A DNA stretch of 64,000 nucleotides from Thunnus maccoyii (Eukaryota > Chordata > Actinopteri > Scombriformes > Scombridae), in assembly GCF_910596095.1 (NCBI RefSeq), contig NC_056540.1:24062501-24126500 (forward strand). The letters run 5' to 3'. Made by a program: the position numbers and the translations under genes. Positions 13,399 through 64,000 of this stretch are shown here, piece after piece. Each line of letters begins with the position of its first letter. Position 1 is the first letter of the stretch. Below the pieces are notes generated by a model. That model saw nothing but the letters and a program-made list of their open reading frames with translations. It was not told the origin of the DNA and did no database searches.

Positions 13399-15277
13399 TC
13401 ATTTAACTTGAGAGTACACACAATCCTCTGAAAAGTCTTTCTTCTTTCTTCCTCTCGTTGCTTTTCTTTCTGAGAAATTCAGTGCAGCGTAGTTCATTCT
13501 GTCATCAGCTTCAGTCTGTGCAGCAAATAAAACAGTTATATATATAAAGTGATATATATACGGTGCCTTTAATGGAATAACAATATATTTTGTTTTGTCA
13601 CTCACAATATCATGTACCTGTTGGCGCAAGTTGTCATGTTGAGCTTCTGAAATAGTGCTTTCCATTCCTAAAGATGAATGAAATCATAAAAATGAAATAT
13701 TTGATAGATAAAGGAACTTAATCTGACTTTTTCGTAAGAGTATAATGTCATAAAATAAAAATCGTAAAGGTGGACATTTTCTTTGATTATTCAGATAAAA
13801 TATGATCAGAGAATTTAATGAGGCACACAAAGGAAAAACAACCTCTATGGAGACTTAAATGTTTGTCTTTTGAATGCATGTTGCTGCTAATGTTCAACAG
13901 TTCATTAATAATATACAATATGACATGATTTTACCCAAGAACCTATACTGTAAAGGTTTGTCCAAACTTGTACATAAAATGTGTAAATAAATTAATATGT
14001 AATACATCAGAACATGTTTTCAATCTAAAAGAAGCATTTAGTTTGTTACAACACTTACCTTTATATTGTTCATGTACTCTTAGACTTCGGTTGCAGATGA
14101 AGACAACATTTGCAGCAACAGAAATGGCCAAGCAGACTATTAATATCACTATTCCAATAAATAGTGAATGTGTTGTTTGCACTAGAAAACAAACCAACAG
14201 GAAAGACTTATCAATGTTGATGTTATCAACATAATTTGAGTATTACTTTCATTATGTACACCATTTCATACCAAGTTCCAGTTTAGTTCCATTTCCAAAT
14301 AATATCTCTCCACATGTGGCCACAGCACAGTAATAAGTCCCATCATCAGAGGAGCTGATGTTTTTAGAGAAACGATAGACACAGCTCTTTGGAGATGAGT
14401 GAATGCCAGTTTTCTTTCTACATTCATCACGGCTACTTCCATCAGTGTAGATGAGGTCTGGATGAGATGCATTTGATCCGGCTCTGAACCAGTAAACACT
14501 GTGTCCTCCTGGACACGTCTTGTTCTCGTATTCAGAGAGGATTGAACACTGGAGAGTCACGGAGTCTCCTGGATGGACTGGATCAGATACTGTCGGCCAC
14601 TGAACAACAGTATAGTTTGATGTCCTTTCAGTGTTTCCTATGCAATGCAAAAATGTCAAAATTTTGAGATCACTTTTGAAAATATAAATTTATGTTTTGT
14701 GATGAAATTGGGGAATTTAGTGACTTAAAGTAAAATAGATCACATTATTACCTTTAACTAACAAATATGTCCCGCTCCATTCAAGATTATTCCACTCTGT
14801 GATTGCACAATGGTACATTCCCTCGTCTTCTTGGGTTGTACTCAAAATGGTCAGGTTACTAAAATTCTTATCAGTTTGTATGTCCAATCTTGTGGAAGAA
14901 AACACATACTGAGGTGTTGTAGATTTATACAGTTGCACAAATGATTTCAGAGTATCACCGGCACTCTGCTTGTACCAGTAAAGACTATGTGTGCTGAAAT
15001 CATAATTACGCAAAGCACATGTCAAGTTTGCAGGTTCACCAGGTTGAACTGTGATCACTGGAATCAGCGTATCTGAATGAAATTAAAATATAAAATACAT
15101 GACATTGTAAATAACTATTATTGTATGATGAAGAAAATGTATTATGCAAAAGGATGATATATGAACCAACCAAATAACATTTCGTTGCAAATTCTTAGTT
15201 GTATACAGAATGCACAGAATTAGATGGTACTTACATCCTTGATGAAGAACAAGCAGTGTTACCCATAACACGATCAT
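13399..15277 (-). CDS. nitr: NITR-B: novel immune-type receptor
   Basis: 343-residue receptor in six coding exons (minus strand): 15277-15235, 15072-14752, 14637-14272, 14181-14059, 13667-13606, 13515-13399. The leader MIVLWVTLLVLHQG is followed by a V domain with LYWYKQ and the YHC cysteine and a CDR3-like AITEWNNLEW. The V domain is two codons shorter than in the paralogues. The I domain has six cysteines and ends CGEILFGNGTKLEL. A neutral membrane segment starts at HSLFIGIVILIVC. The tail has MNYAAL (Tyr314, ITIM-like because Met replaces the usual I/V/L/S at -2) and CVYSQV (Tyr339, Cys at -2). An AATAAA lies at 13,118-13,113. All frames are open and splice sites standard, so it looks functional. 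An inhibitory role is inferred from the tail. Confidence 0.85.
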
Positions 15278-23230: not shown

Positions 23231-23565
23231 GCATTTGAGCCATTTACTTTAAGAATTTTTATTGCAGCAGTAATTTCACAGTAACACAACGATTAGTTTT
23301 CAAATACAAAATTTTGTGTTAACACAATTAAAGACCAAAGATAACATTGATATGATAAAGATGATAAAGATGATATGTAAGAAAGGCAACAATAATATGT
23401 TCTAGACTATGATAGTCCTAATTGTGTCAACAATAAAGTAATTTTTTTGAGTAAGGGTTAATATTTAATATTTAGCCAAGATAAAAAAAATACAACAAAA
23501 CAATCACAAACAGATGCAAGTGCTCAATATTATCAACAATATCATCATTTAACTTGAGAGTACAA

Positions 23566-23632
23566 GTAAACTGGGAATCGTTAAGCAGAAACGGAATCAG
23601 AATTGATAAAATTCAGACGATACTCAACCGTA
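23566..23632. mobile_element. 67-bp hAT terminal remnant inside the last coding exon of NITR-C
   Basis: The remnant ends in ACTCAACCGTA, the inverted end of the hAT element at 59,557-60,560. It is flanked by GAGTACAA (23,558-23,565) and GAGTACAC (23,633-23,640), an 8-bp duplication with one later change. The inner part and the other end of the element are gone. It supplies the last 15-16 codons and the stop of NITR-C. Confidence 0.8.
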
Positions 23633-25545
23633 GAGTACACACAGTCCTCTGAAAACTCTTTCTTCTTTCTTCCTCTCGTTGCTTTTCTTTCTGAGAAATT
23701 CAGTGCAGCGTAGTTCATTCTGTCATCAACTTCAGTCTGTGCAGCAAATAAAATGGTTATATATATAAAGTGATATATATACGGTGTCTTTAATGGAATA
23801 ACAATACATTAAATTTTGTTTTTTCACTCACAATATCATGTACCGCTTGACGCAAGTTGTCATGTCGAGCTTCTGAAATAGTGCTTTCCATTCCTACAAA
23901 TGAATTAAATCATAAAAATAAGTATTTGATAGATAAAGGAACTTAATCTGACTTTTTAGTAAGAGTATAATGTCATAAAATAAAAATCGTAAAAGTGGAC
24001 ATTTTCTTTGATTATTCATATAAAATATAGTCAGAGAATTTAATTTTTTACATAAAGGAAAAACAACCTCTATGAAGATTTAAATGTTTGTCTTTTGAAT
24101 GCATGTTGCTGCTGTTGTTCAAAAGTTCAATAATAATATACAATATGACATAATTTTACCCAAGAACATATACTGTAAAGGTTTGTCCAAACTTGAACAT
24201 AAAATGTATAAATAAATGAATATGTCATACATCAGAACATGTTTTCAATCTAACAGAAGCATTTAGTTTGTACAACACTTACCTTTATATTGTTCACGTA
24301 CTCTTAGACTTCGGTTGCAGATGAAGACGACATTTGCAACAACAGAAATGGTCAAACAGACTATTAATATCACTATTCCAATAAATAGTGAATGTGTTGT
24401 TTGCACTAGAAAACAAACCAACAGGAAAGACTTATCAATGTTGATGTTATCAACATAATTTGAGTAATACTTTCATTACTGAACACTAAATCATACCAAG
24501 TTCCAGTTTAGTTCCATTTCCAAATAATATCTCTCCACATGTGGCCACCGCACAGTAATAAGTCCCAGCATCAGAGGAGATGATGTTTTTAGAGAAGCGA
24601 TAGACACAGCTCTTTGGAGACGAGTGAATGCCAGTTTTCTTTCTACATTCATCACGACTTCCATCAGTGTAGATGAAGTCTGGATGAGATGCATCTGATC
24701 CGGCTCTGAACCAGTAAACACTGTGTCCTCCTGGACACGTCTTGTTCTTGTAGTCAGAGAGGACTGAACACTGGAGAGTCACAGAGTCTCCTGGACGTAC
24801 TGGATCAGATACTGTTGGCCACTGAACAACAGTATAGTTTGATGTCCTTTCAGTGTTTCCTATGCAATGTAAAACTATGTTAAAAATTAGAGACCTTCAC
24901 ACACATTTTGAAAACTGGTATTGAAGTATATCTCAAACATTAATTCAAATTTTGTAATGAAATTGGGAAATTTAGCGACACTTAAAAGTTAAAGTAAAAT
25001 AGATCACATTATTACCTTTTACTAACAAATATGTCCCGTTCCATTTAGCATTAATCCAGTCCGTGATTCCACAATGGTACATTCCCTCGTCTTCTTGGGT
25101 TGTCCTCAAAATGGTCAGGTTACTAAAATTCTTTTCAGTATGTACGTTCAATCTCGTGGAATTAAACTCTGGTTCATACTGAGGTGTTGTAGATTTATAC
25201 AGTTTCACAATTAATTTCAGAGTATCACCGGCACTCTGCTTGTACCAGTAGAGTTGTTTAGTGTTTAAATCATGATTATGCAAAGTACATCCCAAGGTTG
25301 CAGGTTCACCAGGTTGAACTGTGATCACTGGAATCAGTGAATCTGAATGAAGTGAAAATATAGAATACACATTGTAAATAACAATTATTGTATGATGTAC
25401 AAAATGTATTATGCAAAAAGCTGATATATGAACCTCCAAACATCTTGTAGAAATGCAAATTCTTAGTTGTATACAGAATGCACAGAATTAGATGGTACTT
25501 ACATCCTTGATGAAGAACAAGCAGTGTTACCCATAACACGATCAT
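23581..25545 (-). CDS. nitr: NITR-C: novel immune-type receptor with transposon-derived C-terminus
   Basis: 357-residue receptor; coding exons (minus): 25545-25503, 25342-25016, 24859-24497, 24405-24283, 23893-23832, 23736-23581. V domain: Cys33, LYWYKQ 45-50, NFSNLT 86-91 (two N-glycosylation sites), Cys105, CDR3-like GITDWINAKW. I domain about 125-245, with six cysteines (154, 165, 195, 208, 226, 231) and J-like FGNGTKL at 236-242; it is one codon shorter than its paralogues at DGSRDEC. Membrane segment about 250-274, uncharged. Tail: MNYAAL (Tyr315) and CVYSTV (Tyr340). After YST the frame runs into the remnant of a hAT transposon end, so the usual QVK* is replaced by TVEYRLNFINSDSVSA*. 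The Val at +3 of the second motif is kept. The frame is intact otherwise. Confidence 0.83.
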
Positions 25546-29624: not shown

Positions 29625-31559
29625 TCATTTAACTTGAGAGTACACGCTGTCCTCTGAAAAGTCTTTCTTCTTTCTTCCTCTCGTTGCTTTTCTTTCTGAG
29701 AAATTCAGTGCAGCGTAGTTCATTCTGTCATCAGTTTCAGTCTGTGCAGCAAATAAAACAGTTATATATATAAAGTGATATATATACGGTGTCTTTAAGA
29801 GAACAACAATACATTAAATTTTGTTTTTTCACTCACAATATCATGTACTGGTTGACGCAAGTTGTCATGTCGAGCTTCTGAAATAGTGCTTTCCATTCCT
29901 ACAGATGAATTAAATCATAAAAATAAGTATTTGATAGATAAAGGAACTCAATCTGACTTTTTAGTAAGAGTATAATGTCATAAAATAAAAATCGTAAATG
30001 TGGACATTTTCTTTGACTATTCAGATAAAATATGATCAGAGAATTTAATGAGGCACACAAAGGAAAAACAACCTCTATGGAGACTTAAATGTTTGTCTTT
30101 TGAATGCATGTTGCTGCTGCTGTTCAAAAGTTCATTAATAATATACAATATGACATGATTTTACCCAAGAACCTATACTGTAAAGGTTTGTCCAAACTTG
30201 AACATAAAATGTATAAATAAATTAATATGTCATACATCAGAACATGTTTTCAATCTAAAAGAAGCATTTAGTTTGTTACAACACTTACCTTTATATTGTT
30301 CACGTACTCTTAGACTTCGGTTGCAGATGAAGACGACATTTGCAGCAACAGAAATGGCCAAGCAGACTGTTAATATCACTATTCCAATAAATAGTGAATG
30401 TGTTGTTTGCACTAGAAAACAAACACATACAAAAAGAAAGATGTATCAATGTCTCTTAAAGAGACTTATCAATCATTATGTTATCAACATAATTTGAGTA
30501 TTACTTTAATTATTGACCACTAAATCATACCAAGTTCCAGTTTAGTTCCATTTCCAAATAATATCTCTCCACATGTGGCCACAGCACAGTAATAAGTCCC
30601 AGCATCAGAGGAGCTGACGCTTTTAGAGAAGCTGTAGACACAGCTCTTTGGAGATGAGTGAATGCCAGTTTTCTTTCTACATTCATCATGGCTACTTCCA
30701 TCAGTGTAGATGAAGTCTGGATGAGATGCATCTGATCTGGCTCTGAACCAGTAAACACTGTGTCCTCCTGGACACGTCTTGTTCTTGTAGTCAGAGAAGA
30801 TTGAACACTGGAGAGTCACAGAGTCTCCTGGACGGACTGGATCAGATACTGTTGGCCACTGAACAACAGTATAGTTTGATGTCCTTTCAGTGTTTCCTAT
30901 GCAATGCAAAACTACGTCAAAATTTTGAGATCCACATACACATTTTGAAAATATAAATTTGAATTTTGTAATGAAATTGAGAAATTTAGAGACACTTTAA
31001 AGTTAAAGTAAAACAGATCACATTATTACCTTTTACAAACAAATATGTCCCGCTCCATTCATAATCAATCCACTCCACGAATGCACAATGGTACATTCCC
31101 TCGTCTTCTTGGGTTGTCGTCAAAATGGTCAGGTTACTAAAATTCTCGTCAGTATGTACGTTCAATCTTGAGGGAGAAAACTCTGGTCCATACTGAGGTG
31201 TTGCAGATCCATACAGTTTCACAATTAATTTCAGAGTATCACCAGCAGTTTGTTTGTACCAATAGAGATTTATTCTGCTGAGATCATAATTACGCGAGGC
31301 ACATGTCAAGTTTACAGGTTCACCAAGTTGAACTGTGATCACTGGAACCAGCGTATCTGAATGAAATGAAAATATAGAATACACATTGTAAATAACAATT
31401 ATTGTATGATGTACAAAATGTATTATGCAAAAAGATGATACATGAACCTTCAAACATCTTGTCGAAATGCAAATTCTTAATTGTATACAGAATGCACAGA
31501 ATTAGATGGCACTTACATCCTTGATGAAGAACAAGCAGTGTTACCCATAACACAATCAT
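29625..31559 (-). CDS. nitr: NITR-D: novel immune-type receptor, canonical second ITIM
   Basis: 345-residue receptor; coding exons (minus): 31559-31517, 31356-31030, 30896-30531, 30411-30289, 29898-29837, 29741-29625. The V domain has LYWYKQ, NFSNLT, the YHC cysteine and a CDR3-like AFVEWIDYEW; its CDR1-like loop RNYDLSRINL is unique in the cluster. The I domain has six cysteines and FGNGTKLEL. The membrane segment is uncharged. The tail has MNYAAL (Tyr316) and SVYSQV (Tyr341). With Ser at -2 and Val at +3, the second motif is a true ITIM by the S/I/V/LxYxxI/V/L rule, unlike the Cys version in B, C, E and G. There is no hAT insertion; the tail ends VYSQVK. It looks intact. Confidence 0.85.
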
Positions 31560-36732: not shown

Positions 36733-39093
36733 TGGTTCAGTATTGACTGAGAGCACTGCAGCTGGCAGCCTTGAAATGGGCTGTAATGTGATCCGACAGG
36801 GCAATAGCGGCCCGTGAATGTGCATCCACTAAAAGTGCTTGTTTTTGTCACTGAGAGGCTCAGATTGTTATTATAAGTGTGACAACATTATGGAAAGGAC
36901 CACACAGAGAAATAAAACGTGTTTATTTACTGTTTGCTTGATCCAGTCTATTTGTTATTGTGTCAAACCAAGTCTCACTCAAGGAGAAGTCTTGTTCTGA
37001 AATCTTGCAAGAGTTGAGTTGTTGTCGAAATCAACTAAATATTCAGTCATGACGGAGTTGGAGAGAGGAGTGCTGGGAAGAATTTGTTGTATTGGAGTAC
37101 AGAAAGCAAAGCTTAGTGTTATCTAAAAGATTTTCAAGGTCATGGCTGAATATTTAGCTGATTTTGATAACAACTCAACTCCAGAAGGGTTCAGAGCTGG
37201 TTGAGTCCTGGGCTTTTGACTTGCAGGGAGCATTTCTATATCCGTTAACCCTCTAAAACCTACACAGACAAAGAAGCGCCTGGACATATTTTTTTTTTCC
37301 AACTCTGAGCTTATTCTTTCAGTGAGTATCAAGTATTATACATCATATGATTCAGGGGAACCTACCCTTTCTTTCTAGTGCAGTATAAAGTCACCATCAT
37401 GCATTACCTTTGTGTGAGAATATCATATATAGCAAAAAAAGAAAAACGCCCAGTGAAAAAACTTGTTTTGTTGACAACTTTATAGTCAATCAGGGAATTT
37501 TTTTCAATGTGAAAAGTGCTATTTAGGTGTTTTGGAGCTTCATGTCAAGTTCACTCAAATTCTGAATAATGTAAGAAAAACACCCTTCGGGGGCTTCATA
37601 GAAAGTACAGAGGAAAACACAAGGCATTATCAGGAACCATGTCCTTACAGGTTCTTAAAAGTCCAGGTTATGGGAAAGTCCAGGTTATGGGGTTGTTAAG
37701 GTCCCACGATATAATAGACCTGTTAGATTTTCATATGTAGAGACTTTGTCAAGGCTATTCCCAGCAAAGGAGGAGAACTACTGGTGGACCTGAACAGCAC
37801 GTCAGAAAAAATAAGCAACTGGTTAAAATTTGGATAAACCCAAACAACTAAAAGGCAACTTTTGCGTTGTCAGCATGACAATTAGGAAAAACTATACATC
37901 ATGTATAGCTTATCGTGTGGACTACAGTGTGAAATAAATCAGAAAATTTTAACATTACTAAAGTGAGACTTCAGCTTACTGACAGAAAGGAGGAATAGAG
38001 CAATAGATGACTGGGGTCAAACATTTGGGTTAGGCAATATTTCATCAGCCTTATACTTCAAGGCCAAAATAGAATTTCACGTAAAGCAGATGGGAGGTTT
38101 GTTATGGCACGAGTAGGCTGGAAGGACTACAGCCTCTGTGGTTGCATAGATTAAAGGTGGGGATGGGTGGGAGTGGGAGGCAGAGCTTTTTCAGGCTGTT
38201 CTCAGCGGGAAGGAAGACGTAGTGACGGACGGATTCATCTGATCCAGACATGATGAGTCTAACTGTGATGTGACGGTCAAACAGGAATGTCTGACTGAAA
38301 GATGTTAGCCTGACATTGAGTTTTTGTTCTGTTGTTGGAAAGTTTGATGTCATGAAGTCTGAGTGGGCCATTTCTAAACCTGCAGAGATGGCTGCTCAGA
38401 TCTGAGGCGACCAAGTTCCTCACTTCCACTTCACTATTCATTCTGTTTGCCAAAGAATTTGTGGGCCAAAAACAAAAACAATGAGCTAAAGAGGCTAAAA
38501 TGGAGTACTCTCTTAGAGTTATTACGCAGGGAGGATGTCTGCATTTCCATAAATTATTAAAATGTCTTAAACTGAAATGTAAAAATAGTATTAATTTATT
38601 AATTTGACTTAAATATGAAACCATGACTTCTTAAATTTAACATTAGCACTTGATCTGGTACGTGTTTTAATGGGAAACAAGTTTACTTAACATTTTCATG
38701 TTGCAATAGTGAATGTGTTTCAGACTCTAAACACAGTTAATATTACACATGAAAGCATTTGAGCCATTTACTTTAAGAATTTTTATTGCAGCAGTAATTT
38801 CACAGTAACACAACGATCAGTTTTCAAACACAAAATTTTGTGTTAACACAATTAAGGACCAAAGAAAACATTGATATGATGAAGATGATAAAGATGATAT
38901 GTAAGAAAGGCAACAATAATGTGTTATAGACTATGATAGTCCTAACTGTGTCAACAATAAAGTAATTTTTTTGAGTAAGGGTTAATATTTAATATTTAGC
39001 CAAGATAAAAAAAAAAAATACTACAAAACAATCAGAAACAGATGCAAGTGCTCAATATTATCAACAGTATCATCATTTAACTTGAGAGTACAA

Positions 39094-39160
39094 GTAAACT
39101 GGGAATCGTTAAGCAGAAACGGAATCAGAATTGATAAAATTCAGACGATACTCAACCGTA
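39094..39160. mobile_element. 67-bp hAT terminal remnant inside the last coding exon of NITR-E
   Basis: Same scar as in NITR-C, flanked by GAGTACAA (39,086-39,093) and GAGTACAC (39,161-39,168). The same inner breakpoint (AGTAAACTGGGAATCG) in C and E shows that both inherited one deletion event. Confidence 0.8.
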
Positions 39161-41097
39161 GAGTACACACAGTCCTCTGAAAACTCTTTCTTCTTTCTTC
39201 CTCTTGTTGCTTTTCTTTCTGAGAAATTCAGTGCAGCGTAGTTCATTCTGTCATCAACTTCAGTCTGTGCAGGAAATAAAATGGTTACATATATAAAGTG
39301 ATATATATACGGTGTCTTTAATGGAACAACAATACATTAAATTTTGTTTTTTCACTCACAATATCATGTACCGGTTGACGCAAGTTGTCATGTCGAGCTT
39401 CTGAAATAGTGCTTTCCATTCCTACAGATGAATGAAATCATAAAAATAAGTATTTGATAGATAAAGGAACTTAATCTGACTTTTTAGTAAGAGTATTATG
39501 TCATAAAATAAAAATCGTAAAAGTGGACATTTTCTTTGATTATTCATATAAAATATAGTCAGAGAGTTTAACGAGGTACACAAAGGAAAAACAACCTCTA
39601 TGAAGACTTAAATGTTTGTCTTTTGAATGCATGTTGCTGCTATTGTTCAAAAATTCATTGATAATATACAATATGACATGATTTTACCCAAGAACCTATA
39701 CTGTAAAGGTTTGTCCAAACTTGTACATAAATTGTATAAATAAATTAATATGTCATACATCAGAACATGTTTTCAATCTAACAGAAGCATTTAGTTTGTT
39801 ACAACACTTACCTTTATATTGTTCACATACTCTTAGACTTCGGTTGCAGATGAAGACGACATTTGCAACAACAGAAATGGTCAAGCAGACTATTGATATC
39901 ACTATTCCAATAAATAGTGAATGTGTTGTTTGCACTAGAAAACAAACACACAAAAAGAAAGATGTATCAATGTCTCTTAAAGAGACTTATCAATCATGAT
40001 GTTATCAACGTAATTTGAGTAATACTTTCATTATTGAACACTAAATCATACCAAGTTCCAGTTTAGTTCCATTTCCAAATAATATCTCTCCACATGTGGC
40101 CACAGCACAGTAATAAGTCCCAGCATCAGAGGAGCTGATGTTTTTAGAGAAGCTGTAGACACAGCTCTTTGGAGACGAGTGAATGCCAGTGTTATTGCTA
40201 CATTCATCACGACTATTTCCATCAGTGTAGATGAAGTCTGGGCGAGATGCATTTGATCCAGCTCTGAACCAGTAAACACTGTGTACTCCTGGACACGTCT
40301 TGTTCTTGTAGTCAGACAGGATTGAACACTGGAGAGTCACAGAGTCTCCTGGACGGACTGGATCAGATACTGGCGGCCGCTGAACAACAGTATAGTTTGA
40401 TGTCCTTTCAGTGTTTCCTATGCAATGCAAAACTATGTTAAAAATTAGAGACCTTCACACATTTTGTAAACTGGTATTGAAGTATATCTCAAACATAAAT
40501 TCAAATTTTGTAATGGAATTGGGAAATTTAGCGACACTTAAAAGTTAAAGTAAAATAGATCACATTATTACCCTTTACTAATAAATATATCCCGTTCCAT
40601 TCAGGATTAATCCACTCCATGGCTGCACAATGGTACATTCCCTCGTCTTCTTGGGTTGTCCTCAAAATGGTCAGGTTACTAAAATTCTTTTCAGTATGTA
40701 CGTTCAATCTTGAGGGAGAAAACTCTGGTCCATACTGAGGTGTTCCAGATCCATACAGTTTCAGGATTAATTTCAGAGTATCACCGGCACTCTGCTTGTA
40801 CCAGTAGAGTTGTTTAGTGTTTAAATCATAATTATGCAAAGTACATCTCAAGGTTGCAGGTTCACCAGATTGAACTGTGATCACTGGAATCAGTGCATCT
40901 GAATGAAATGAAAATATAGAATACACATTGTAAAGAACAATTATTGTATAATGTACCAAATACATTATGCAAAAAGATGATATATGAACCTCCAAACATC
41001 TTGTTGGCAAATTCTCAATTGCATACAGAATGCACAGAATTAGATGATACTTACATCCTTGATGAAGAACAAGCAGTGTTACCCATAACACGATCAT
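39109..41097 (-). CDS. nitr: NITR-E: novel immune-type receptor with transposon-derived C-terminus
   Basis: 358-residue receptor; coding exons (minus): 41097-41055, 40898-40572, 40417-40052, 39934-39812, 39421-39360, 39264-39109. The V domain is closest to that of C (CDR1-like HNYDLNTKQL), with CDR3-like AAMEWINPEW. The I domain has six cysteines and FGNGTKLEL; DECSNNTG adds a possible N-glycosylation site not seen in the others. The membrane segment is uncharged. The tail has MNYAAL (Tyr316) and CVYSTV (Tyr341) and then the same transposon-encoded ending as C. The exon 2 donor is shifted by nothing, but the last codon before it is AAG instead of AAA. All frames are open. Confidence 0.83.
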
Positions 41098-44599: not shown

Positions 44600-47229
44600 T
44601 GCTGTGTCTTGCTGGGCCTGCATCAGCATAAAGTTTTTTGGTTGGCTGGTTGTAATTGGAGGAATTTGGAGTTGAAATGGCAGAAAGTGAGGCGTTTATT
44701 GCTGCTCCGTCCGAGGAGGCCTTGGAGAGGTGCACAAAAGAGCAGTTGCTTAGATTGTTATTCAGTGGTGGTGGGGGTTACATGTCTCAAAATGTCTCAA
44801 AGAAAATATTAAAGTGGCTTTGAAATCAAAACTAGTTGAAATGGGGGTTATGACAGCAGACCCAGAGGTGCTTTCTCCAGTTGTCACTACTATACTTGTT
44901 CAGATGCAAGGGCTGACTTTTGAGCAACAAAAAGAGCTTCTCTTGATCCAAATGGAACAAGAGAAATGTAAACAAGAGTTGGAAGTTAAAAAGCAAATAG
45001 AGGTGTAGATGATTTGCCAGCAGACACAGAGAGCAAGGTTAGAGCTGGAGGGACATCGTCTATCTCTGAGTTAAGACAGCAAGTGGTGCAAGCAGTGAGG
45101 ATCAGGGTGGGCAAGTGCCAAGGTCTGGTGTGCATCCCTTTGATATTAGTAACTTGCGTTTGTTGCCAAAGTTAAATGAGAGGGACCTAAATGTTTTTTT
45201 GTGTTGTTTGAGCATGTTAGTAAGGTGAGGAGCTGGCTTGATGCGGACTGTGTTTTAATGTTCCAGTGTGTTCTCACTGGAAAGGCGCAGAAAGCTTATT
45301 CATTCTTGTGCCTAGAAGATAGCTCTAGCTACCACAAAGTAAAATCTACCGTGCTTAAGGCCTATGAGTTTGTGCCAGAGGTGTACCGCCATCGGTTCAA
45401 GTCTTGGGAGAAGAGAAATGGTCAAACATATGTTGAATTTGCTAAAGATCTGACAAACCATTTTAAATGCTGGTTGACTGCACTCGAAGTTACTAATTTT
45501 AATGACTTGTGTGATTTGGTTATTTTGGAGTAGTTCAAAAATACTACGACCTACATTAACGAGAAAAAGGTCACCACTGCTGCTGAGGCTGCTGCATCAG
45601 CAGATGAATATGTGCTGCTCCATAAAAGCAGTTTTAGGAAGCACACTGCTGCACGTGATGACTCTGGATGGAGAGGGAATAACTCCGGTACTACTTCATT
45701 CGACCAGATGTGGCCACGGAAAGCTAGTTCATTTAAGTTTGACCATAATTCACGTGGCACCTTGGATAAGAGTAAAAGCTGCAACTACTGTCATGAGACA
45801 GGGCATTGGAAGGCTGAGTGTCCTGCTTTACAGACAAAAAATAAGGGAGTAAAACCTAATGTGAAGCCTTCTGTGGCTGCTGCACCTGTTGGTACTGGTC
45901 GCACCTCTGAAGTGCCTTCCTCTAATGGTTGTAAGCCTGATGTTTTGGCTGCGCATGCTCCTTTCATTAGAGATGGTTTTGTGTCACTGGTGGAAAATCC
46001 TGAGGGACACAGGTGCATATGACTCTTACATAGTGGACTCTGTGTTGCGTTTATCAGCAGAAACTGACACTGGTGATCAGTTGTGGGATGGGTTTAACCA
46101 TTTTGCCTATGCCCTTGCACAAAATGATCCTTAGCTGTGAGCTTGTGCAGGGTGAGGTGGCTGCGGTGGTACAGCCAGAGTTGCCCATTGAAGGGGTTCA
46201 CTTTATTTTGAGCAATGGCTTGGCTGGTAGCCGGGTTTGGGCTGAAACTCCTTCATCAACTGTGGTTACACTCTGTCTGGGTGACACTGGGGAGGCCGCA
46301 GTTTGATCGGGCATTTATGCTCTGGGTGGATGCCAGCCAGGTGGGAGCAGGTGCCGTCTTGCTGCAGGAGGATGGATGGGGGTGGGGAGGCCAGTAAGCT
46401 TCTTTTCCAAAAACTTAAACCGTTACCAGTTTAATTACTCAGTGATAGAGAAGGAACCGTTGGCACTCATTTGGGCTTTGCAGCATTTTGAAGTGTATGT
46501 ATGAGCAGGTGTAGCACCTCTTGTGGTTTATACGGATTATAATCTTCTGACTTTTTTACAGTCTCTCAGGAGCCCAAACCAGAGACTAATGAGGTGGTCT
46601 TGGTTTTTGCAGGCCTATGACCTGGACATTAGACACATTAAAGGAATAGACAACATCATAGCAGATGTGTTGTCACGTGCCCCTTTGCTCTGAGTTCTTG
46701 CCCGTGTGACCTCTGAGCCTACTGTAACGCCATTTCTTTCTGCCCTTTTGACTTGCTCTTACAAGTGCCTGTTGTCTTAATCTCCTTCCCAGGTACCGGG
46801 GTTGCTGAGGAGGGGTGGGGGAAGCAGCAGGTGGATTCCATTGTGTGCACTGTCAGTTACTGTGTCTGTCTTTGAGGTGCTACAGGAGCTGATTGCAGGA
46901 GGCTATCAACCAGATTTGGAGCACCTGAGCCCAGTGCTCCACAGGACATAAAAGGCCCAGCTTCCAGCATGGCTTGCTCTCTCTCTCCCCGCTAGTGAAT
47001 GTTTTGTTTTGCTTAGCCTTTTGTTTTACTTTTATTACACAACACCCTCCTCCACACCATCCACACCCATCCATGTGAACACTATAGATGCCACTGACTA
47101 ACACACCTCACATCCTGAAGTTACTTTGCAGTTTATTCACTTACTTACTCTACAATAAATTATTTGGTATTTATTGGCATTTGGTGTCTTTTCCTGTTTT
47201 TGGCATGGCCTATGGGCTGGGTTATTACA
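44600..47229 (+). mobile_element. Ty3/Gypsy LTR retrotransposon fossil
   Basis: Parts occur in the order of a Gypsy element: a gag-like region (about 44.8-45.5 kb), a CCHC zinc knuckle CNYCHETGHWKAEC (about 45.78 kb), an aspartic-protease start DTGAYDS (about 46.01 kb), and RNase H pieces (VDASQVGAGAVLLQED, 46.33 kb; VYTDYNLL and IKGIDNIIADVLSR, 46.5-46.7 kb). A 3' LTR follows. Most of the reverse transcriptase and the integrase region are not recognisable. The element is broken many times over. The left edge lies somewhere between 43,990 and 44,680, and no 5' LTR was recognised, so LTR divergence cannot give an age. It sits in the 5' flank of NITR-F. Confidence 0.8.
46723..47229 (+). repeat. 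Probable 3' LTR of the Gypsy fossil
   Basis: Begins TGTAACGCC and ends GGGTTATTACA, giving TG...CA ends with short inverted TGTAA/TTACA. It contains a TATA-like CATAAAAGG and an AATAAA near its right end. The sequence right of it is paralogous receptor-unit DNA. Confidence 0.55.
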
Positions 47230-47946: not shown

Positions 47947-49679
47947 ATGATCGTGTTATGGGTAACACTGCTTGTTCTTCATCAAGGTTGTAAGTATCAT
48001 CTAATTCTGTGTATTCTCCATACAATTAAGAATTTGCATGCCAACAAGATGTTTGGAGGTTCATATAGCATCTTTTTGCAATATGTATTTTCTACATCAT
48101 ACAATAATTGTTCTTTACAATGTGTATTCTATCATTTCATTTCATTCAGATACGCTGATTCCAGTGATCACGGTTCAACTTGGTGAACCTGCAACTTTGA
48201 CATGTGCTTTATCTCATGATGAGCTCAGCAGTAAAAAACTCTACTGGTACAAGCAGAGTGCTGGTGATACTCTGAAATTAATTGTGAAACTGTATGGATC
48301 TACAACACCTGAGTATGAACCAGATTTTTCTCCCTCAAGATTTGACATACATAGAGATAAGAATTTTAGTAACCTGACCATTTTGAAGACAACCCAAGAA
48401 GACGAGGGAATGTACCATTGTGGAGTTGTAGAGTGGACGAATCCTGAATGGAGTGGGACATATTTGTTAGTAAAAGGTAATAATGTGATCTATTTTTTAA
48501 CTTTAACTTTAAAGTGTCACTAAATTTCTCATTGTCATTACAATATTTAAATTTATATTTGAAATATACTTCAATATTTATATAATATACAATTTTCAAA
48601 ATGTGTGTGGAGGTCTCTAATTTTTAACGTAGTTTTGCATTGCATAGGAAACACTGAAAGGACATCAAACTATACTGTTGTTCAGTGGCCAACAGCATCT
48701 GATCCAGTCCGTCCAGGAGACTCTGTGACTCTCCAGTGTTCAATCCTCTCTGAATACAAGAACAAGACGTGTCCAGGAGTACACAGTGTTTACTGGTTCA
48801 GAGCCAGATCAAATGCATCTCATCCAGACCTCATCTACACTGACGGAAGTAGCCGTGATGAATGTAGAAATAAAACTGGCATTCACTCATCTCCAAAGAG
48901 CTGTGTCTACAGCTTCTCTAAAAACATCAGCTCCTCTGATGATGGGACTTATTACTGTGCCGTGGCCACATGTGGAGAGATATTATTTGGAAATGGAACT
49001 AAACTGGAACTCGGTATGATTTAGTGGTCAATAATGAAAGTAATACTCAAATTATGTTGATAACATCAACATTGATAAGTCTTTCTTGTTGGTTTGTTTT
49101 CTAGTGCAAACAACACATTCACTATTTATTGGAATAGTGATATTAACAGTCTGCTTGACCATTTCTGTTGCTGCAAATGTCATCTTCATCTGCAACCGAA
49201 GTCTAAGAGTACGTGAACAATATAAAGGTAAGTGTTGTAACAAACTAAATGCTTCTGTTAGATTGAACATTGACTATATTTTATCTGAATAATCAAAGAA
49301 AATGTCCACCCTAACAATTTTTATTTTATGACATTATACTCTTACTAAAAAGTCAGATTAAGTTCCTTTATCTATCAAATATTTATTCTTATGATTTCAT
49401 TCATCTTTAGGAATGGAAAGCACTATTTCAGAAGCTTGACATGACAACTTGCACCAATCGGTACATGATATTGTGAGTGAAAAAACAAAATGTGTTGTTG
49501 TTCTATTAAAGACACCGTATATATATCACTTTATTTATATAATCATTTTATTTGCTGCACAGACTGAAGCTGAAGACAAAATGAACTACGCTGCACTGAA
49601 TTTCTCAGAAAGAAAAGCAACAAGAGGAAGAAAGAAGAAAGAGTTTTCAGGGGACAGTGTGTACTCTCAAGTTAAATGA
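47947..49679 (+). CDS. nitr: NITR-F: novel immune-type receptor, tail cut by a stop codon
   Basis: Inverted relative to its neighbours. Exons: 47947-47989, 48150-48476, 48648-49013, 49105-49227, 49411-49472, and a relic tail exon 49563-49679. The V domain (CDR3-like GVVEWTNPEW), six-cysteine I domain with FGNGTKLEL, and uncharged membrane segment are intact. In exon 5 the codon that is CGA in C is TGA (49,437-49,439), giving a 295-residue product ending GMESTISEA and lacking both tail motifs. The untranslated exon 6 still encodes MNYAAL and a good SVYSQV ITIM with no further damage, so the stop looks recent. Skipping exon 5 would also end at once (GAC TGA). AATAAA is at 49,952-49,957. The product may be a tail-less surface receptor or the gene may be an early pseudogene. 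Confidence 0.82.
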
Positions 49680-53984: not shown

Positions 53985-55912
53985 TCATTTAACTTGAGAG
54001 TACACACAATCCTCTGAAAACTCTTTCTTCTTTCTTCCTCTTGTTGCTTTTCTTTCTGAGAAATTCAGTGCAGCGTAGTTCATTCTGTCATCAACTTCAG
54101 TCTGTGCAGCAAATAAAATGGTTATATATATAAAGTGATATATATATACGGTGCCTTTAATGGAATAACAATACATTTCATTTTGTTTTTTCACTCACAA
54201 TATCATGTACTGGTTGACGCAAGTTGTCATGTCGAGCTTCTGAAATAGTGCTTTCCATTCCTACAGATGAATGAAATCATAGGAATAAATATTTGATAGA
54301 TAAAGGAACTTAATCTGACGTCTTAGTAGAGTAGAGTATAATATCATAAATAAAAGTCGTAAAGGTGGCCATTTTCTTTGATTATTCATATAAAATATAG
54401 TCAGAGAGTTTAATGAGGTACACAAAGGAAAAACAACCTCTATTGAGAGATAAATGTTTGTCTTTTGAATGCATGTTACTGCTATTGTTCAAAAGTTCAA
54501 TAATAATATACAATATGACGTGATTTTTCTCAAGAACCTATACTGTAAAGGTTTGTCCAAACTTGAACATAAATTGTATAAATAAAGTAATATGTCATAT
54601 ATCAGAACATGTTTTCAATCTAACAGAAGCATTTAGTTTGTTACAACACTTACCTTTATATTGTTCACGTACTCTCAGACTTCGGTTGCAGATGAAGACG
54701 ACATTTGCAACAACAGAAATGGCCAAACAGACTATTAATATCACTATTCCAATAAATAGTGAATGTGTTGTTTGCACTAGAAAACAAACCAACAAGATAG
54801 ACTTATCAATGTTGATGTTATCAACATAATTTGAGTATTACTTTCACTATGAACACCATTTCATACCAAGTTCGAGTTTAGTTCCATCTCCAAATAATAT
54901 CTCTCCACATGTGGCCACAGCACAGTAATAAGTCCCATCATCAGAGGAGCTGATGTTTTTAGAGAAGCGATAGACACAGCTCTTTGGAGACGAGTGAATG
55001 CCAGTTTTCTTTCTACATTCATCACGGCTACTTCCATCAGTGTAGATGAAGTCTGGGTGAGATGCATCTGATCCGGCTCTGAACCAGTAAACACTGTATC
55101 CTCCTGGACACGTCTTGTTCTTGTATTCAGAGAGGACTGAACACTGGAGAGTCACAGAGTCTCCTGGAGGGACTGGATCAGATACTGTCGGCCACCGAAC
55201 AACAGTATAGTTTGATGTCCTTTCAGTGTTTCCTATGCAATGCAAAACTATGTTAAAAACTTGAGACCTTCACACACATTTTGAAAACTGGTATTGAAGT
55301 ATATCTCAAACATAAATTTAAGTATTGTAATGAAAATGGGAAATTTAGTGATGCTTTAAAGTTAAATAGATCAAGTTATTACCTTTTACTAACAAATATG
55401 TTCCTCTCCATACAGGAATAATCCACTCCGCGATTGCACAATGGTACATTCCCTCGTCTTCTTGGGTTGTCCTCAAAATGGTCAGGTTACTAAAATTCTT
55501 ATTGGTATTTATGTCCAATTTTGAGCGGGGAAACTCTGATCCATACTCAGGTGGTGCATTTTGATGCAGTATGACAATTAATTTCAGAGTGTCACCAGCA
55601 CTCTGCTTGTACCAGTAGAGTTGTTTAAAGCTGAACACATCATTAGGGAAAGCACATGTCAAGTTTGCAGGTTCACCAAGTTGAACTGTGATCACTGGAA
55701 CCAGCGTATCTGAATTAAGTGAAAATATAGAATACACATTGTAAATAACAATCACTGTATGATGTAGAAAATGTATTATGCAAAAAGATGATATATGAAC
55801 CTCCAAAAATCTTGTCAGCATGCAAATTCTTAATTGTATAGAGAATGCACAGAATTAGATGATACTTACATCCTTGATGAAGAACAAGCAGTGTTACCCA
55901 TAACACGATCAT
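53985..55912 (-). CDS. nitr: NITR-G: novel immune-type receptor
   Basis: 345-residue receptor; coding exons (minus): 55912-55870, 55709-55383, 55232-54867, 54776-54654, 54260-54199, 54101-53985. The V domain differs from B-F in CDR1 (PNDVFSFKQL), CDR2 (LHQNAPPEYGSEF) and CDR3 (AIAEWIIPVW) and is nearly the same as in H. The I domain has six cysteines and FGDGTKLEL (Asp for the usual Asn in the J-like motif). The membrane segment is uncharged. The tail has MNYAAL (Tyr316) and CVYSQV (Tyr341) and the normal QVK ending. The last exon resembles those of C and E (EVDDRMN) but has no transposon scar. It looks intact. Confidence 0.85.
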
Positions 55913-56517: not shown

Positions 56518-57388
56518 ATGTTTAGTAGATTATTTCTTTGTTGTAACAATGCTCCTTGGCTATAAATCTTATACCATTGGAAAGCCTGTTTATTTCCCTT
56601 TTAAATGGTGCCACATTTGTAAGGAACATGCATTTGTGGGATGAGCAGCAGAGCTGAGTATGTGGGTTGTGCCCATGAAAAATATGCCAAATCTTCTCTG
56701 CCAATGCCAAACAGCTTATTTTGCTGTTGCTATTGACTCTTGTTTTGAGCTTCTGGTACCCCCAGGTGCTGCCAGTCAGGTGATAGAGTAACATCTTCTG
56801 GTGGAGGCAGTGTGATGGTGTGGGGCGGCATCTCCCTCACTGGAAAAACAAGGCTTGTCATCATTGGAGGCAATCTCAATGCACAGAGATATCGAGATGA
56901 GATTCTGCAACCAGTGGCAATCCCATGTCTCCACAGTCTGGGACCGAACTCTGTCCTCTACGATGACAACGCTTGCTCCCACAGAGCGAGGTTTATCAGA
57001 GACTACCTCCAGAATTTGGGAGTGGAGAGGATGGAATGGCCTGCCAGCAGTCTTGACCTCAACCCCATTGAACACTTGTGGGATCAGCTTGGGTGTGCTG
57101 TTCGTGCCAGAGTGACCAACACAACCACGTTGACTGACTTGCGACAAATGCTGGTTGAAGAATGGGATGCCATCCCACAGCAGTGTGTGACAAGGCTGGT
57201 GACCAGCATGAGGAGGAGGTGCCAGGCTGTTGTGGCTGTGTATGGTTCTTCCACACGCTACTGAGGCTCCTGTTTGTTAAATGAATAAATTGTTAAATCA
57301 CCAATATATCTTGTTTCTTCAGACTTCAATAATCCAATCCACCAAACACCAAACAAGAGTCAATGGCAGAATAAGCTGTTTGGCATTG
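56518..57388 (+). mobile_element. Tc1-like element, deletion derivative, copy 1
   Basis: A long left terminal repeat (about 56,518-56,760; the part from GAAAGCCTGTTTATTTC at 56,580 can be checked against its inverted partner in copy 2) runs directly into the C-terminal half of a Tc1-type transposase (about 56,797-57,264). This includes MVWGGIS, the second Asp in LYDDNACSHRA and the Glu in LDLNPIEHLWD. The DNA-binding half and the first catalytic Asp are missing, so it cannot be active. The right terminal repeat is lost: the sequence departs at TTGGCATTG (57,388). Confidence 0.85.
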
Positions 57389-59240: not shown

Positions 59241-59556
59241 TGAGCCATTTAGTTTAAGAATTTTTATTGCAACAGTAAATAATTTCAGATTGAGACAACA
59301 AACACAAAATTTTGTGTTAATACAATTAAAGAAAAAAGATAAAACTGACATGAAATAGCTGATATGTAAGAAAGGCAACAATAATATGTGATAGACTATG
59401 ATTGTTCTAAGTTTGTCAACAATTAAGTGATTTTTTTGAGTAAGGGTTAATATTTAATATTTAGCCAAGATAAAAACAAAACAAAACAAAACAATCACAA
59501 ACAGATGCAAGTGCTCAATATTATCAACAGTATCAACATTTAACTCATGAGTACAC

Positions 59557-60560
59557 TAGGGTTGGGCATCGAGAACTGGTTCCAAAATTTAGATTCCCAG
59601 TGAATCATTAAGAAATTCTTATTTCGATTCCACTTATCAGTTCCCAAACACGTTACATATCTGCAAGGACCTGTCTCCATTATGCATCAATGCAACAGCT
59701 TGTTTGTTTACATATGAGCATGCATGGCTAACATCACAACAATATTGAGAGAAAGATGGACCGCGGTAAACGCTGTAAAGTGTGTCTTCACTTTATTTAA
59801 GAAAATGAAAAGGCAAAGTACAATGCATGTGGGAGGCTAATTAGGTGTAAATCAGATTGCACATCAAATCTGACCAAATATTTAAGGCAGCACGGCGCCG
59901 GTCTCCCAGCCTGAGGGTGTCATCAGCCAGCACCTCCAGTAGAGCCGGGGATACCAAGCTGCGACACACTGTCTATGTATGTATGTAAGTTTCTGTTTCC
60001 TGTTGTCATTAAGGTGTCACTTTTCTTTTTCAAGTTTTTCTTGTTGTTCAGCAACATAAAGGAAGTCCTCAGCTGCATTCAGACTGAAAACAGTGCTGTG
60101 TTGGTGTGATCAATGAAATACAATCCAGCAGTCTAGTGGGGGGAACAGATTATTGCGTTTAAAGGCTGATCAGAAAAACACTGTTCAGTGGTTTGTTATA
60201 CTCACAGACTGGATTTAACAACTCTGGAAAATTATCACACTGAAACCCTGTTCACTAGTGCACACATGTGACATGTCTGTGTCTACAGACCTCCGAAAAA
60301 AGTGACAGCACACTATGTCATTGAGGGAAAGATGAGACAGAAAGTCTTCCGGACAAAAGCAGAAAGTTCAGTTTAAAAGACTTTGAAATGACTTATTTTA
60401 ATGAAACAATAAAAGTCATAGTAAACGCTTAAAAGAATGAAGATATTTTTGTTATTTAAACATTTGATCTCTTTTTTCTTACCACATTGGAATAGAAACT
60501 GGGAATCGTTAAGCAGAAACAGAATCAGAATTGATAAAATTCAGACGATACTCAACCGTA
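59557..60560. mobile_element. hAT transposon, decayed, inserted in the last coding exon of NITR-H
   Basis: 1,004 bp with imperfect inverted ends TAGGGTTGGGCATCGAGAA and the complement of its partner, TACGGTTGAGTATCGTCTG. It is flanked by a perfect 8-bp duplication GAGTACAC (59,549-59,556 and 60,561-60,568), the hallmark of hAT. At 59,800-59,900 the plus strand encodes KAKYNACGRLIRCKSD followed by TSNLTKYLRQHG, a degenerate BED zinc finger of hAT transposases. The catalytic region is absent. The end nearest 60,560 is read as coding sequence by NITR-H. Confidence 0.85.
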
Positions 60561-62431
60561 GAGTACACACTGTCGTCTGAAAACTCTTTCTTCTTTCTTC
60601 TTCTCGTTGCTTTTCTTTCTGGGAAATTCATTGCAGTGTAGTTCATTTTGTCTTCAGCTTCAGTCTGTGCAGCAAATAAAACAGTTATATATATAAATTG
60701 ACATATATATATATATATATAATGCCTTTAATGGAATAACAATACATTTCATTTTGTTTTTTCACTCACAATATCATGTCTTTGTTGGCGCAAGTTGTCA
60801 TGTTGAGCCTCTGAAATAGTGCTTTCCATTCCTAAAAATGAATGAAATCATAACAATAAACATTTGATTACTTAAAGGAACTTAATCTGACTTCTTAGTA
60901 AGAATATAATGTCATAAAAAAAATCGTTAGGATGTACATTTTCTTTGATTATTCATATAAAATATAGTCAGAGAGTTAAATGAGGTACACAAAGGAAAAA
61001 CAACTTCTATGAAGACTTAAATGTTTGTCTTTTGAATGCATGTTGCTGCTATTGTTCAAAAGTTCATTAATAATATACAATATGACATGATTTTACCCAA
61101 GAACCTATACTGTAAAGGTTTGTCTGAACATGATTTCAATGTAACATAAGCATTTAGTTTGTTACAACACTTACCTTTATATTGTTCACATACTCTTAGA
61201 CTTCGGTTGCAGATGAAGACGACAATTGCAACAACAGAAATGGCCAAGCAGACTACTAATATCACTATTCCAATAAATAGTGAATGCGTTGTTTGCACTA
61301 GAAAACAAACACACAAGATAGACTTATCAATGTTGATGTTATCAACATAATTTGAGTAATACTCTCATTATGAACACCATTTCATACCAAGTTCCAGTTT
61401 AGTTCCATTTCCAAATAATATCTCTCCACATGTGGCCACTGCACAGTAATAAGTCCCATCATCAGAGGAGCTGATGTTTTTAGAGAAGCGATAGACACAG
61501 CTCTTTGGAGACGAGTGAATGCCAGTTTTCTTTCTACATTCATCACGGCTACTTCCATCAGTGTAGATGAGGTCTGGATGAGATGCATCTGATCCGGCTC
61601 TGAACCAGTAAACACTGTGTACTCCTGGACACGTCTTGTTCTTGTAGTCAGAGAGGACTGAACACTGGAGAGTCACAGAGTCTCCTGGACGGACTGGATC
61701 AGATGCTGTCGGCCACTGAACAACAGTGTGGTTTGATGTCCTTTCAGTGTTTCCTATGCAATGCAAAACTATGTTAAAAACTTGAGACCTCCACACACAT
61801 TTTGAAAACGGTATTGAAGTATATTTCAAATATAAATTTAAGTATTGTAATGAAAATGGGAAATTTAGTGACGCTTTAAAGTTAAATAGATCAATTATTA
61901 CCTTTTACTAACAAATATGTTCCTCTCCATACAGGAATAATCCACTCCGTGATTGCACAATGGTACATTCCCTCGTCTTCTTGGGTTGTCCTCAAAATGG
62001 TCAGGTTACTAAAATTCTTATTGGTATTTATGTCCAATCTTGAGCGGGGAAACTCTGATCCATACTCAGGTGGTACATTTTGATGCAGTATGACAATTAA
62101 TTTCAGAGTGTCACCAGCACTCTGCTTGTACCAGTAGAGTTGTTTAAAGCTGACCACATCATTAGGGAAAGCACATGTCAAAGTTGCAGGTTCACCATGT
62201 TGAACCGTGATCACCGGAACCAGCGTATCTGAATGAAATGAAAATATAGAATACACATTGTAAATAACAATCACTGTATGATGTAGAAAATGTATTATGC
62301 AAAAAGATGATATATGAACCTCCAAACATCTTGTCAGCATGCAAATTCTTAGTTGTATAGAGAATGCACAGAATTATATGGTACTTACATCCTTGATGAA
62401 GAACAAGCAGTGTTACCCATAACACAATCAT
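60509..62431 (-). CDS. nitr: NITR-H: novel immune-type receptor, hAT-derived C-terminus, YxxM motif
   Basis: 358-residue receptor; coding exons (minus): 62431-62389, 62228-61902, 61753-61388, 61297-61175, 60831-60770, 60664-60509. The V domain is almost that of G (PNDVVSFKQL; AITEWIIPVW). The I domain has six cysteines and FGNGTKLEL. The membrane segment is uncharged. The first tail motif is MNYTAM (Tyr316): +3 is Met, so it no longer fits an ITIM but fits YxxM, the p85/PI3K SH2 pattern. The second is SVYSTV (Tyr341), a canonical ITIM. After it the frame enters the hAT element and ends VEYRLNFINSDSVSA*. The original last codons and stop lie beyond the 1-kb insert near 59,540. The last exon is nearest to that of F (EAEDKMN), unlike the rest of the gene. 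Confidence 0.83.
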
Positions 62432-63015: not shown

Positions 63016-64000
63016 GTTTAGTAGATTATTTCTTTGTTGTAACCATGCGTCTTGGCTATAAATCTTATACCGTTGGAAAGCCTGTTTATTTCTGTTTTAA
63101 ATGGTACCACATTTGTAAGGAATTTGTGGGATGAGCAGCAGAGCTGAGTATGTGGGTTGCGCCCATGAAAAATATGCCAAATCTTCTCTGCCAATGCCAA
63201 ACAGCTTACTTTACTGTTGCTATTGACTCTTGTTTTGAGCTTCTGGTACCCCCAGGTGCTGCCAATCAAGTGATAGAGTAACATCTTCTGGTGGAGGCAG
63301 TGTGATGGTGCTGGGTGGCATCTCCCTCACTGGAAAAACGAGGCTTGTCATCATTGGAGGCAATCTCAATGCAGAGAGATATCGAGATGAAATTCTGCAA
63401 CCAGTGGCAATCCCATATCTCCACAGTCTGGGACCGAGCTCTATCCTCTACGATGACAACGCTTGCCCCCACAGAGCGGGGTTTATCAGAGACTACCTCC
63501 AGAATTTGGGAGTGGAGAGGATGGAATGGCCTGCCAGCAGTCCTGACCTCAACCCCATTGGACACTTGTGGGATCAGCTTGGGCGTGCTGTTCGTGCCAG
63601 AGTGACCAACACAACCACGTTGGCTGACTTGTGACAAATGCTGGTAGAAGAATGAGATGCCATCCCACAGCAGTGTGTGACCAGGCTGGTGACCAGCATG
63701 AGGAGGAGGTGCCAGGCTGTTGTGGCTGTGTATGGTTCTTCCACACGCTACTGAGGCTCCTGTTTGTTAAATGAATAAATTGTTAAATTGCCAATATGTC
63801 TTGTGTCTTCAGACTTCAATAATCCAATCCACCAAACACCAAACAAGAATCAATGGCAGAATAAGCTGTTTGGCATTGGCAGAGAAGATTTGGCATATTT
63901 TTCATGAGTGCAACCCACATACTCAGCTCCGCTACTCATCCCACAAATGCATGTTCCTTACAAATGTGATACCATTTAAAAGGGAAATAAACAGGCTTTC
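63016..64000 (+). mobile_element. Tc1-like element, deletion derivative, copy 2 (runs off the window)
   Basis: The left terminal repeat (from GAAAGCCTGTTTATTTC at 63,076) is matched in reverse by the last 150 bp of the window (63,850-64,000), giving terminal repeats of at least about 150 bp. Between them is the same transposase C-terminal half as in copy 1 (about 63,287-63,754). The catalytic Glu is Gly here (LNPIGHLW) and a TGA follows at TTGGCTGACTTGTGA. The identical flank and identical inner deletion show that copies 1 and 2 were duplicated together with NITR-G and NITR-H. Confidence 0.85.

Follow-up and report, generated by a model that had tools for sequence, protein, structure and literature searches.

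In a cluster of NITR immune-receptor genes, which to judge by the gene family would be those of a fish, five of the 14 genes compared are predicted to end in a coding tail contributed by the end of a hAT-like DNA transposon, with the last exon running directly into the element and the last tyrosine motif retained. The account that we favour as a whole, with a probability of about 0.65, is that a single insertion left the ITIM in place and that the resulting tail spread among neighbouring genes by duplication and conversion and was probably tolerated. At the level of sequence the observation is real, its origin is clear, and it is wider than first noted.

The window, that is, the whole stretch of 64,000 nucleotides that was analysed (G000:C8:24062501-24126500), belongs to a genome of 782 Mb in 54 contigs, which was searched as well. 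The NITR gene cluster spans the window and the neighbouring 80 kb, and a sequence search located 16 last-exon sites in it; leaving out the two most divergent ones (window positions 10473-10557 and cluster position 141042-141144) gave a comparison set of 14 genes. All 14 were modelled with six exons, leader, V, I, TM, C1 and C2, which is the NITR plan given in the accessible text of PMC2442602. The internal exon boundaries checked were AG/GT in the 14 models, bar the exon-5 donor of O, which a shifted alignment places elsewhere, and 13 models are open to the end, the exception being F, with a stop in C1 (exon 5). NITR-F also lies on the strand opposite to its neighbours; its exon 5 reads SEA and then a stop, and its other exons look normal. 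The tail carriers are C, E and H in the window and I and J just past its edge, all five with open six-exon models and AG/GT splice sites. The other nine genes have an empty insertion site, and their last exon ends in VYSQVK (seven genes) or VYSQVKC (two). The I domain of H, with six cysteines and the motif FGNGTKLEL, fits the NITR definition and its J-like motif FGXGTXLX(V/L) as worded in that same text (PMC2442602). A structure search matched 2895 chains, and the matches listed (60 of 2895) were antibody-type chains, none of them named NITR.

Several other features of the region were recorded. A divergent NITR-like pair of V and I domains occupies positions 5744-6717 on the + strand, its V part matching V-set. 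Tc1-like transposase remnants lie at 56749-57264 and 63239-63634, the second of which matches DDE_3, and Gag-like open frames are found at 45180-46022, the second of them with a weak zinc-knuckle match under the curated cut-off. The 5000 bases directly before the window (G000:C8:24057501-24062500) are all N, and the edge of the cluster is unreadable there.

Table 1. Features of the NITR cluster related to the element and to its empty sites. Positions are those of the window unless given as genome coordinates.
Feature	Position	Strand	Basis
Whole element (1004 bp), non-autonomous hAT-like, last exon of NITR-H	59557..60560	-	TAGGGTTGGG and CTCAACCGTA at the two ends, enclosed by an exact 8-bp duplication; 8-bp duplications also around sibling copies
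Target-site duplication GAGTACAC, far side, H	59549..59556	.	identical to exon-side copy
Target-site duplication GAGTACAC, exon side, H	60561..60568	.	identical to far-side copy
Predicted element-derived tail of H: third base of Ser codon, then 16 codons and the stop	60509..60560	-	translation
NITR-H last coding exon (C2): ITIM SVYSTV, then tail	60509..60664	-	gene model
NITR-H exon 5 (C1)	60770..60831	-	gene model
NITR-H transmembrane exon	61175..61297	-	gene model
NITR-H I-domain exon (six cysteines, FGNGTKLEL)	61388..61753	-	gene model; V-set in overlying ORF
NITR-H V-domain exon	61902..62228	-	gene model; V-set in overlying ORF
NITR-H leader exon	62389..62431	-	gene model
65-bp element end in NITR-C, coding up to stop at 23581	23568..23632	-	sequence comparison with H
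NITR-C: incomplete duplication GAGTACA (23558-23564) plus 3 bases	23558..23567	.	sequence comparison
NITR-C coding span, leader to transposon-encoded stop	23581..25545	-	gene model
65-bp element end in NITR-E, coding up to stop at 39109	39096..39160	-	sequence comparison with H
NITR-E: incomplete duplication GAGTACA (39086-39092) plus 3 bases	39086..39095	.	sequence comparison
NITR-E coding span, leader to transposon-encoded stop	39109..41097	-	gene model
Empty site, NITR-A last exon, VYSQVK then stop	13412..13516	-	exon comparison
Empty site, NITR-D last exon, VYSQVK then stop	29638..29742	-	exon comparison
Empty site in last exon of NITR-F, a gene interrupted in exon 5	49562..49666	+	exon comparison
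Empty site, NITR-G last exon, VYSQVK then stop; V exon common to G and H	53998..54102	-	exon comparison
Full elements in I and J, exact duplications	G000:C8:24129147-24130141 and 24138069-24139078		outside window

Full elements are present in H (1004 bp), I (995 bp) and J (1010 bp), each between exact copies of GTGTACTC as read on the gene strand, and the stop codon of H lies inside its element (60509-60511). A sequence-only reading of the window had placed an element of about 1 kb with a perfect 8-bp duplication within the last ITIM codons of H, and this holds, both duplications being identical and both ends readable. It had also counted three such receptors; C, E and H indeed qualify, but the number is too low, since I and J also carry full elements with exact duplications. 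NITR-C and NITR-E keep one end of the element, 98.5% identical to that of H and found at the same site and in the same orientation. What had been described for these two genes was correct as to the end and the site, but this end measures 65 bp instead of 67 bp, and the flanking duplication is not the same, its second copy (GAGTACAA) retaining seven of the eight bases and being separated from the 65-bp end by three bases. An in-frame YSQVK behind the stop of C and E was considered and is taken as chance.

As had been reported from the letters alone, the reading frame of C, E and H enters the element and ends in VYSTVEYRLNFINSDSVSA followed by the stop, and the translations of the three agree; all five carriers end in TVEYRLNFI(N/D)SD(S/A)VSA and the stop. 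Comparison with the tail-less VYSQVK end likewise bears out that Gln at +2 of the last tyrosine motif is replaced by Thr and that Val stays at +3. By the definition (S/I/V/L)xYxx(I/V/L), taken from the accessible text of PMC2442602, the last motif of H, I and J (SVYSTV) is a conventional ITIM whose final Val is encoded by the element, and that of C and E (CVYSTV) is ITIM-like only. In the other intact genes under comparison the first motif is MNYAAL, which is ITIM-like; in H, I and J it is MNYTAM and departs from the consensus at both ends. The tail itself adds VEYRLN, which is without the last ITIM position only. The products would most likely be inhibitory-type receptors in which the last tyrosine motif is still usable and which exceed their relatives by 13 residues.

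The origin of this tail could be followed through other copies of the element. A query made of the element end and the exon gave at least 24 genome matches, comprising the five carriers, the nine tail-less genes and 10 element ends elsewhere, these siblings being 77-90% identical to the query over the aligned part. Four of the 10 siblings have exact 8-bp duplications at both ends, one has duplications with one mismatch, one with two and one with four; the far element end was sought in all 10 and not found in three. The terminal inverted repeats of the element read TAGGGTTGGGCATCG and TACGGTTGAGTATCG. A profile search detected zf-BED remnants in two siblings (E 5.8e-06 and 7.2e-05); the BED match was absent from two pieces of the H element, and no hAT transposase was seen. 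In its sequence features the family fits a non-autonomous hAT. Read in the phase of the NITR frame, all 10 siblings have Val at the codon that corresponds to ITIM +3 and nine have Tyr two codons further, and in the other two phases nine of the 10 stop at once or within six residues. The +3 Val thus comes from a conserved inverted repeat and the motif was kept on landing, with a one-in-three chance of phase; since all 10 siblings have Val in this phase, ITIM retention needed the right phase only. We had considered the retained Val remarkable in itself and dropped this idea, as the phase gives Val in all 10 siblings and also at the opposite element end. At the +2 codon the siblings have Arg in eight cases, Lys in one and Ser in one. 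Because eight of these ends would encode Arg and none Thr, the Thr of the NITR tails is probably a post-insertion change. It results from one of four private bases common to the five NITR tails and present in 0 of 10 siblings, which give Thr, Glu, Val and the stop, those for Val and the stop falling in a gapped part of the alignment.

These comparisons suggest how the tail may have arisen. The empty sites and the exact duplications show a single insertion of a non-autonomous hAT, placed behind the second base of the Ser codon next to the last ITIM tyrosine. The sibling ends show that the inverted repeat in that phase completes Ser(+1) and supplies Val(+3), so that landing left the ITIM form intact, and that translation originally continued V-G-Y-R-L-N-F. 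The four private bases, whose sharing by the tails and absence from the siblings are observed, would have arisen after the insertion. Two separate insertions of this element, hitting the same base once in C and E and once in H, I and J, might be invoked to account for gene backgrounds that differ on both sides of the insert, but they would hardly explain why all five tails carry four private bases found in none of 10 siblings, and other matches to this end, among the matches listed, are at most 90% identical. That site, orientation and the four private bases are common to five paralogues is more than chance; we consider independent insertions extremely improbable and have set them aside on account of the private bases. 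The central proposal of the sequence-only reading, namely an in-frame predicted coding tail derived from one hAT insertion and present in several receptors, is supported.

Local duplication and conversion would then have carried the tailed 3' end to further genes; H, I and J combine one 3' end with different V exons. Their 3' flank has 27 variable columns of 965 and the element 52 of 994. In the V exon, each of these genes differs little from a tail-less one (H-G 9/328, I-K 6/325, J-L 1/328). In the first stretch downstream of the site the same pairs show 29/269, 32/260 and 36/274 differences, and H, I and J compared among themselves 6/269, 7/274 and 7/269. V exons being common to H and G, I and K, and J and L, the same V domains are found in tailed and in tail-less genes. 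Conversion of V exons in the cluster was noted as such, with V exons common to tailed and tail-less genes whose 3' ends differ. The informative sites of J match I at 37 consecutive positions upstream and L at 23 consecutive positions across V; downstream, 424 of 436 are I-like, in a region where L can hardly be aligned over much of its length. This mosaic of H, I and J implies that V exons and 3' ends were exchanged separately.

The situation of C and E is different: the two belong together, and their exon is of the type seen in G, K and L. No column of the 14-gene alignment outside the insert is common to the five carriers and absent from the nine other genes. Fixed differences between C and E on one side and H, I and J on the other amount to 0/65 in the tail, as counted by eye on the printed tails, vs 21/289 in the near flanks (p=0.019, post hoc and uncorrected). 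AU tests reject a single carrier clade for intron 4-exon 6 (p=0.033) and exon 5-exon 6 (p=0.024) as well as for the V exon (p far below 0.001), and do not reject it for the 3' flank (p=0.27); all of these tests are post hoc and uncorrected. Plain descent of the five carriers together with their flanks is therefore disfavoured upstream, the downstream flank leaving p=0.27. In terms of sequence, the tail occurs against two different gene backgrounds, and copying from gene to gene is its probable history. The 65 bp of C and E on another background would most simply reflect a gene conversion, short or interrupted, that drew on a full copy. A second route, which we regard as possible though less favoured, is that C and E inherited a full element with its flanks, that most of it was deleted, and that tail-less relatives overwrote the flanks up to the insert. 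It can be entertained because seven of the eight duplication bases are kept on both sides, including the far side, as after the cutting down of a full element; a conversion tract coming from a tail-less donor would end where it meets the insert, and the downstream tree does not reject one clade. Nevertheless, this route needs overwriting on both sides, with no shared flank column left. The predicted protein outcome is the same whether deletion or copying occurred.

The sequence-only reading had gone further and called the element end co-opted. Such a co-option would mean that selection has kept the tail as a new signalling segment, in which the VEYRLN tyrosine and the adjacent Gly-to-Glu change alter phosphatase or adaptor binding, the receptor pairs then offering one V domain with two tails. 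The open frame in all five carriers, whose genes are otherwise intact, the fact that all four private bases alter the protein, the V domains common to both tail classes and the spread to five genes are all in line with it. However, an open frame is expected anyway over so few changes, and four replacing changes out of four are not unusual by chance. Moreover, the first 51 element bases have three variable columns in H, I and J (two replacements and one silent change), so that the tail is about as variable as the noncoding remainder of the element (3/51 vs 49/943, p=0.75, on few sites, post hoc and uncorrected). The adjoining coding exon of the same genes has 0/104 variable columns vs the 3/51 of the tail (p=0.034, post hoc and uncorrected). 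The pN/pS of the I domain is 0.52 in carriers and 0.53 in tail-less genes and that of the V exon 1.17 and 1.18, respectively (calculated without F, whose exon 5 is broken), and since these values are alike the carriers look like ordinary receptors. After these variation counts and pN/pS values we gave up the idea that purifying selection acts on the tail; co-option in the sense of selection is unsupported, and we consider it unlikely. Even more speculative, we think, is the full scenario in which the inverted repeat provides the ITIM +3 residue and a tyrosine, gene conversion moves the tail as a cassette, and one recognition specificity thereby gains two inhibitory outputs. Separately, the preceding cytoplasmic exon shows five changes specific to H, I and J and present in no other compared gene, all of them replacements, which may hint at selection on the cytoplasmic end. 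Our preferred interpretation from sequence is that the tail is an in-frame, ITIM-sparing extension spread by duplication and conversion and probably tolerated, the added tyrosine having possibly a modest effect only.

The tail might also not be made at all, if the genes were silent or the insert spliced past, and its open frame would then be a genomic curiosity. This appears quite improbable given the open gene models, the AG/GT splice sites and an I-domain restraint equal to that of the tail-less genes. The stop lies in the last exon, and AATAAA occurs 275-298 bases into the 3' flank of all five carriers (element and duplication subtracted), with similar places in seven of nine other genes; a normal 3' end is thus possible in the carriers.

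The closest precedent for the NITR tail is exon 4 of Xenopus dm-W, whose coding sequence derives from the noncoding hAT-10 (accessible text of PMC9250109). In both, a noncoding hAT became C-terminal coding sequence of a host gene and a substitution made the stop; dm-W, as described in that text, gained a newly spliced 71-codon exon, whose effect on DNA binding has been measured, whereas the NITR tail is a run-on from an existing last exon, with 16 predicted codons in five paralogues. The IL13RA1-LOR1a isoform resembles the NITR case in that mobile-element sequence ends an immune receptor, but according to the accessible sections of PMC7617988 it involves retroelements and a terminal exon used through alternative splicing, with loss of signalling parts, whereas here a DNA transposon lies in the only last exon and the ITIM is kept. 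The medaka NITR clusters share the L-V-I-TM-C1-C2 organization, ITIM or ITIM-like tails, six I-domain cysteines and tandem expansion, and the accessible text of PMC2442602 shows no transposon-derived tail in them; nor was a transposon-derived NITR tail found among the matches listed in the open-licence literature. For paired receptors such as Siglec-11 and Siglec-16, the portions of PMC5701461 available describe gene conversion that keeps the ectodomain alike on receptors with different signalling ends. Those ends are inhibitory vs activating, whereas both members of the NITR pairs look inhibitory, one of them with a transposon-derived extension. What is distinct here is the direct entry into the inverted repeat in an existing last exon, with the ITIM retained and with V domains that also exist tail-less.

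The NITR cluster thus offers a clear case of a DNA transposon end becoming predicted receptor coding sequence with splicing unchanged, and holds together empty-site paralogues, full elements and partial ends. It indicates that a signalling motif can outlive an insertion provided that the inverted repeat by chance supplies a suitable residue, and that exchange within a tandem immune cluster can hand a new tail to several V domains. The pairs G/H, I/K and J/L are natural matched pairs for the effect of the tail.
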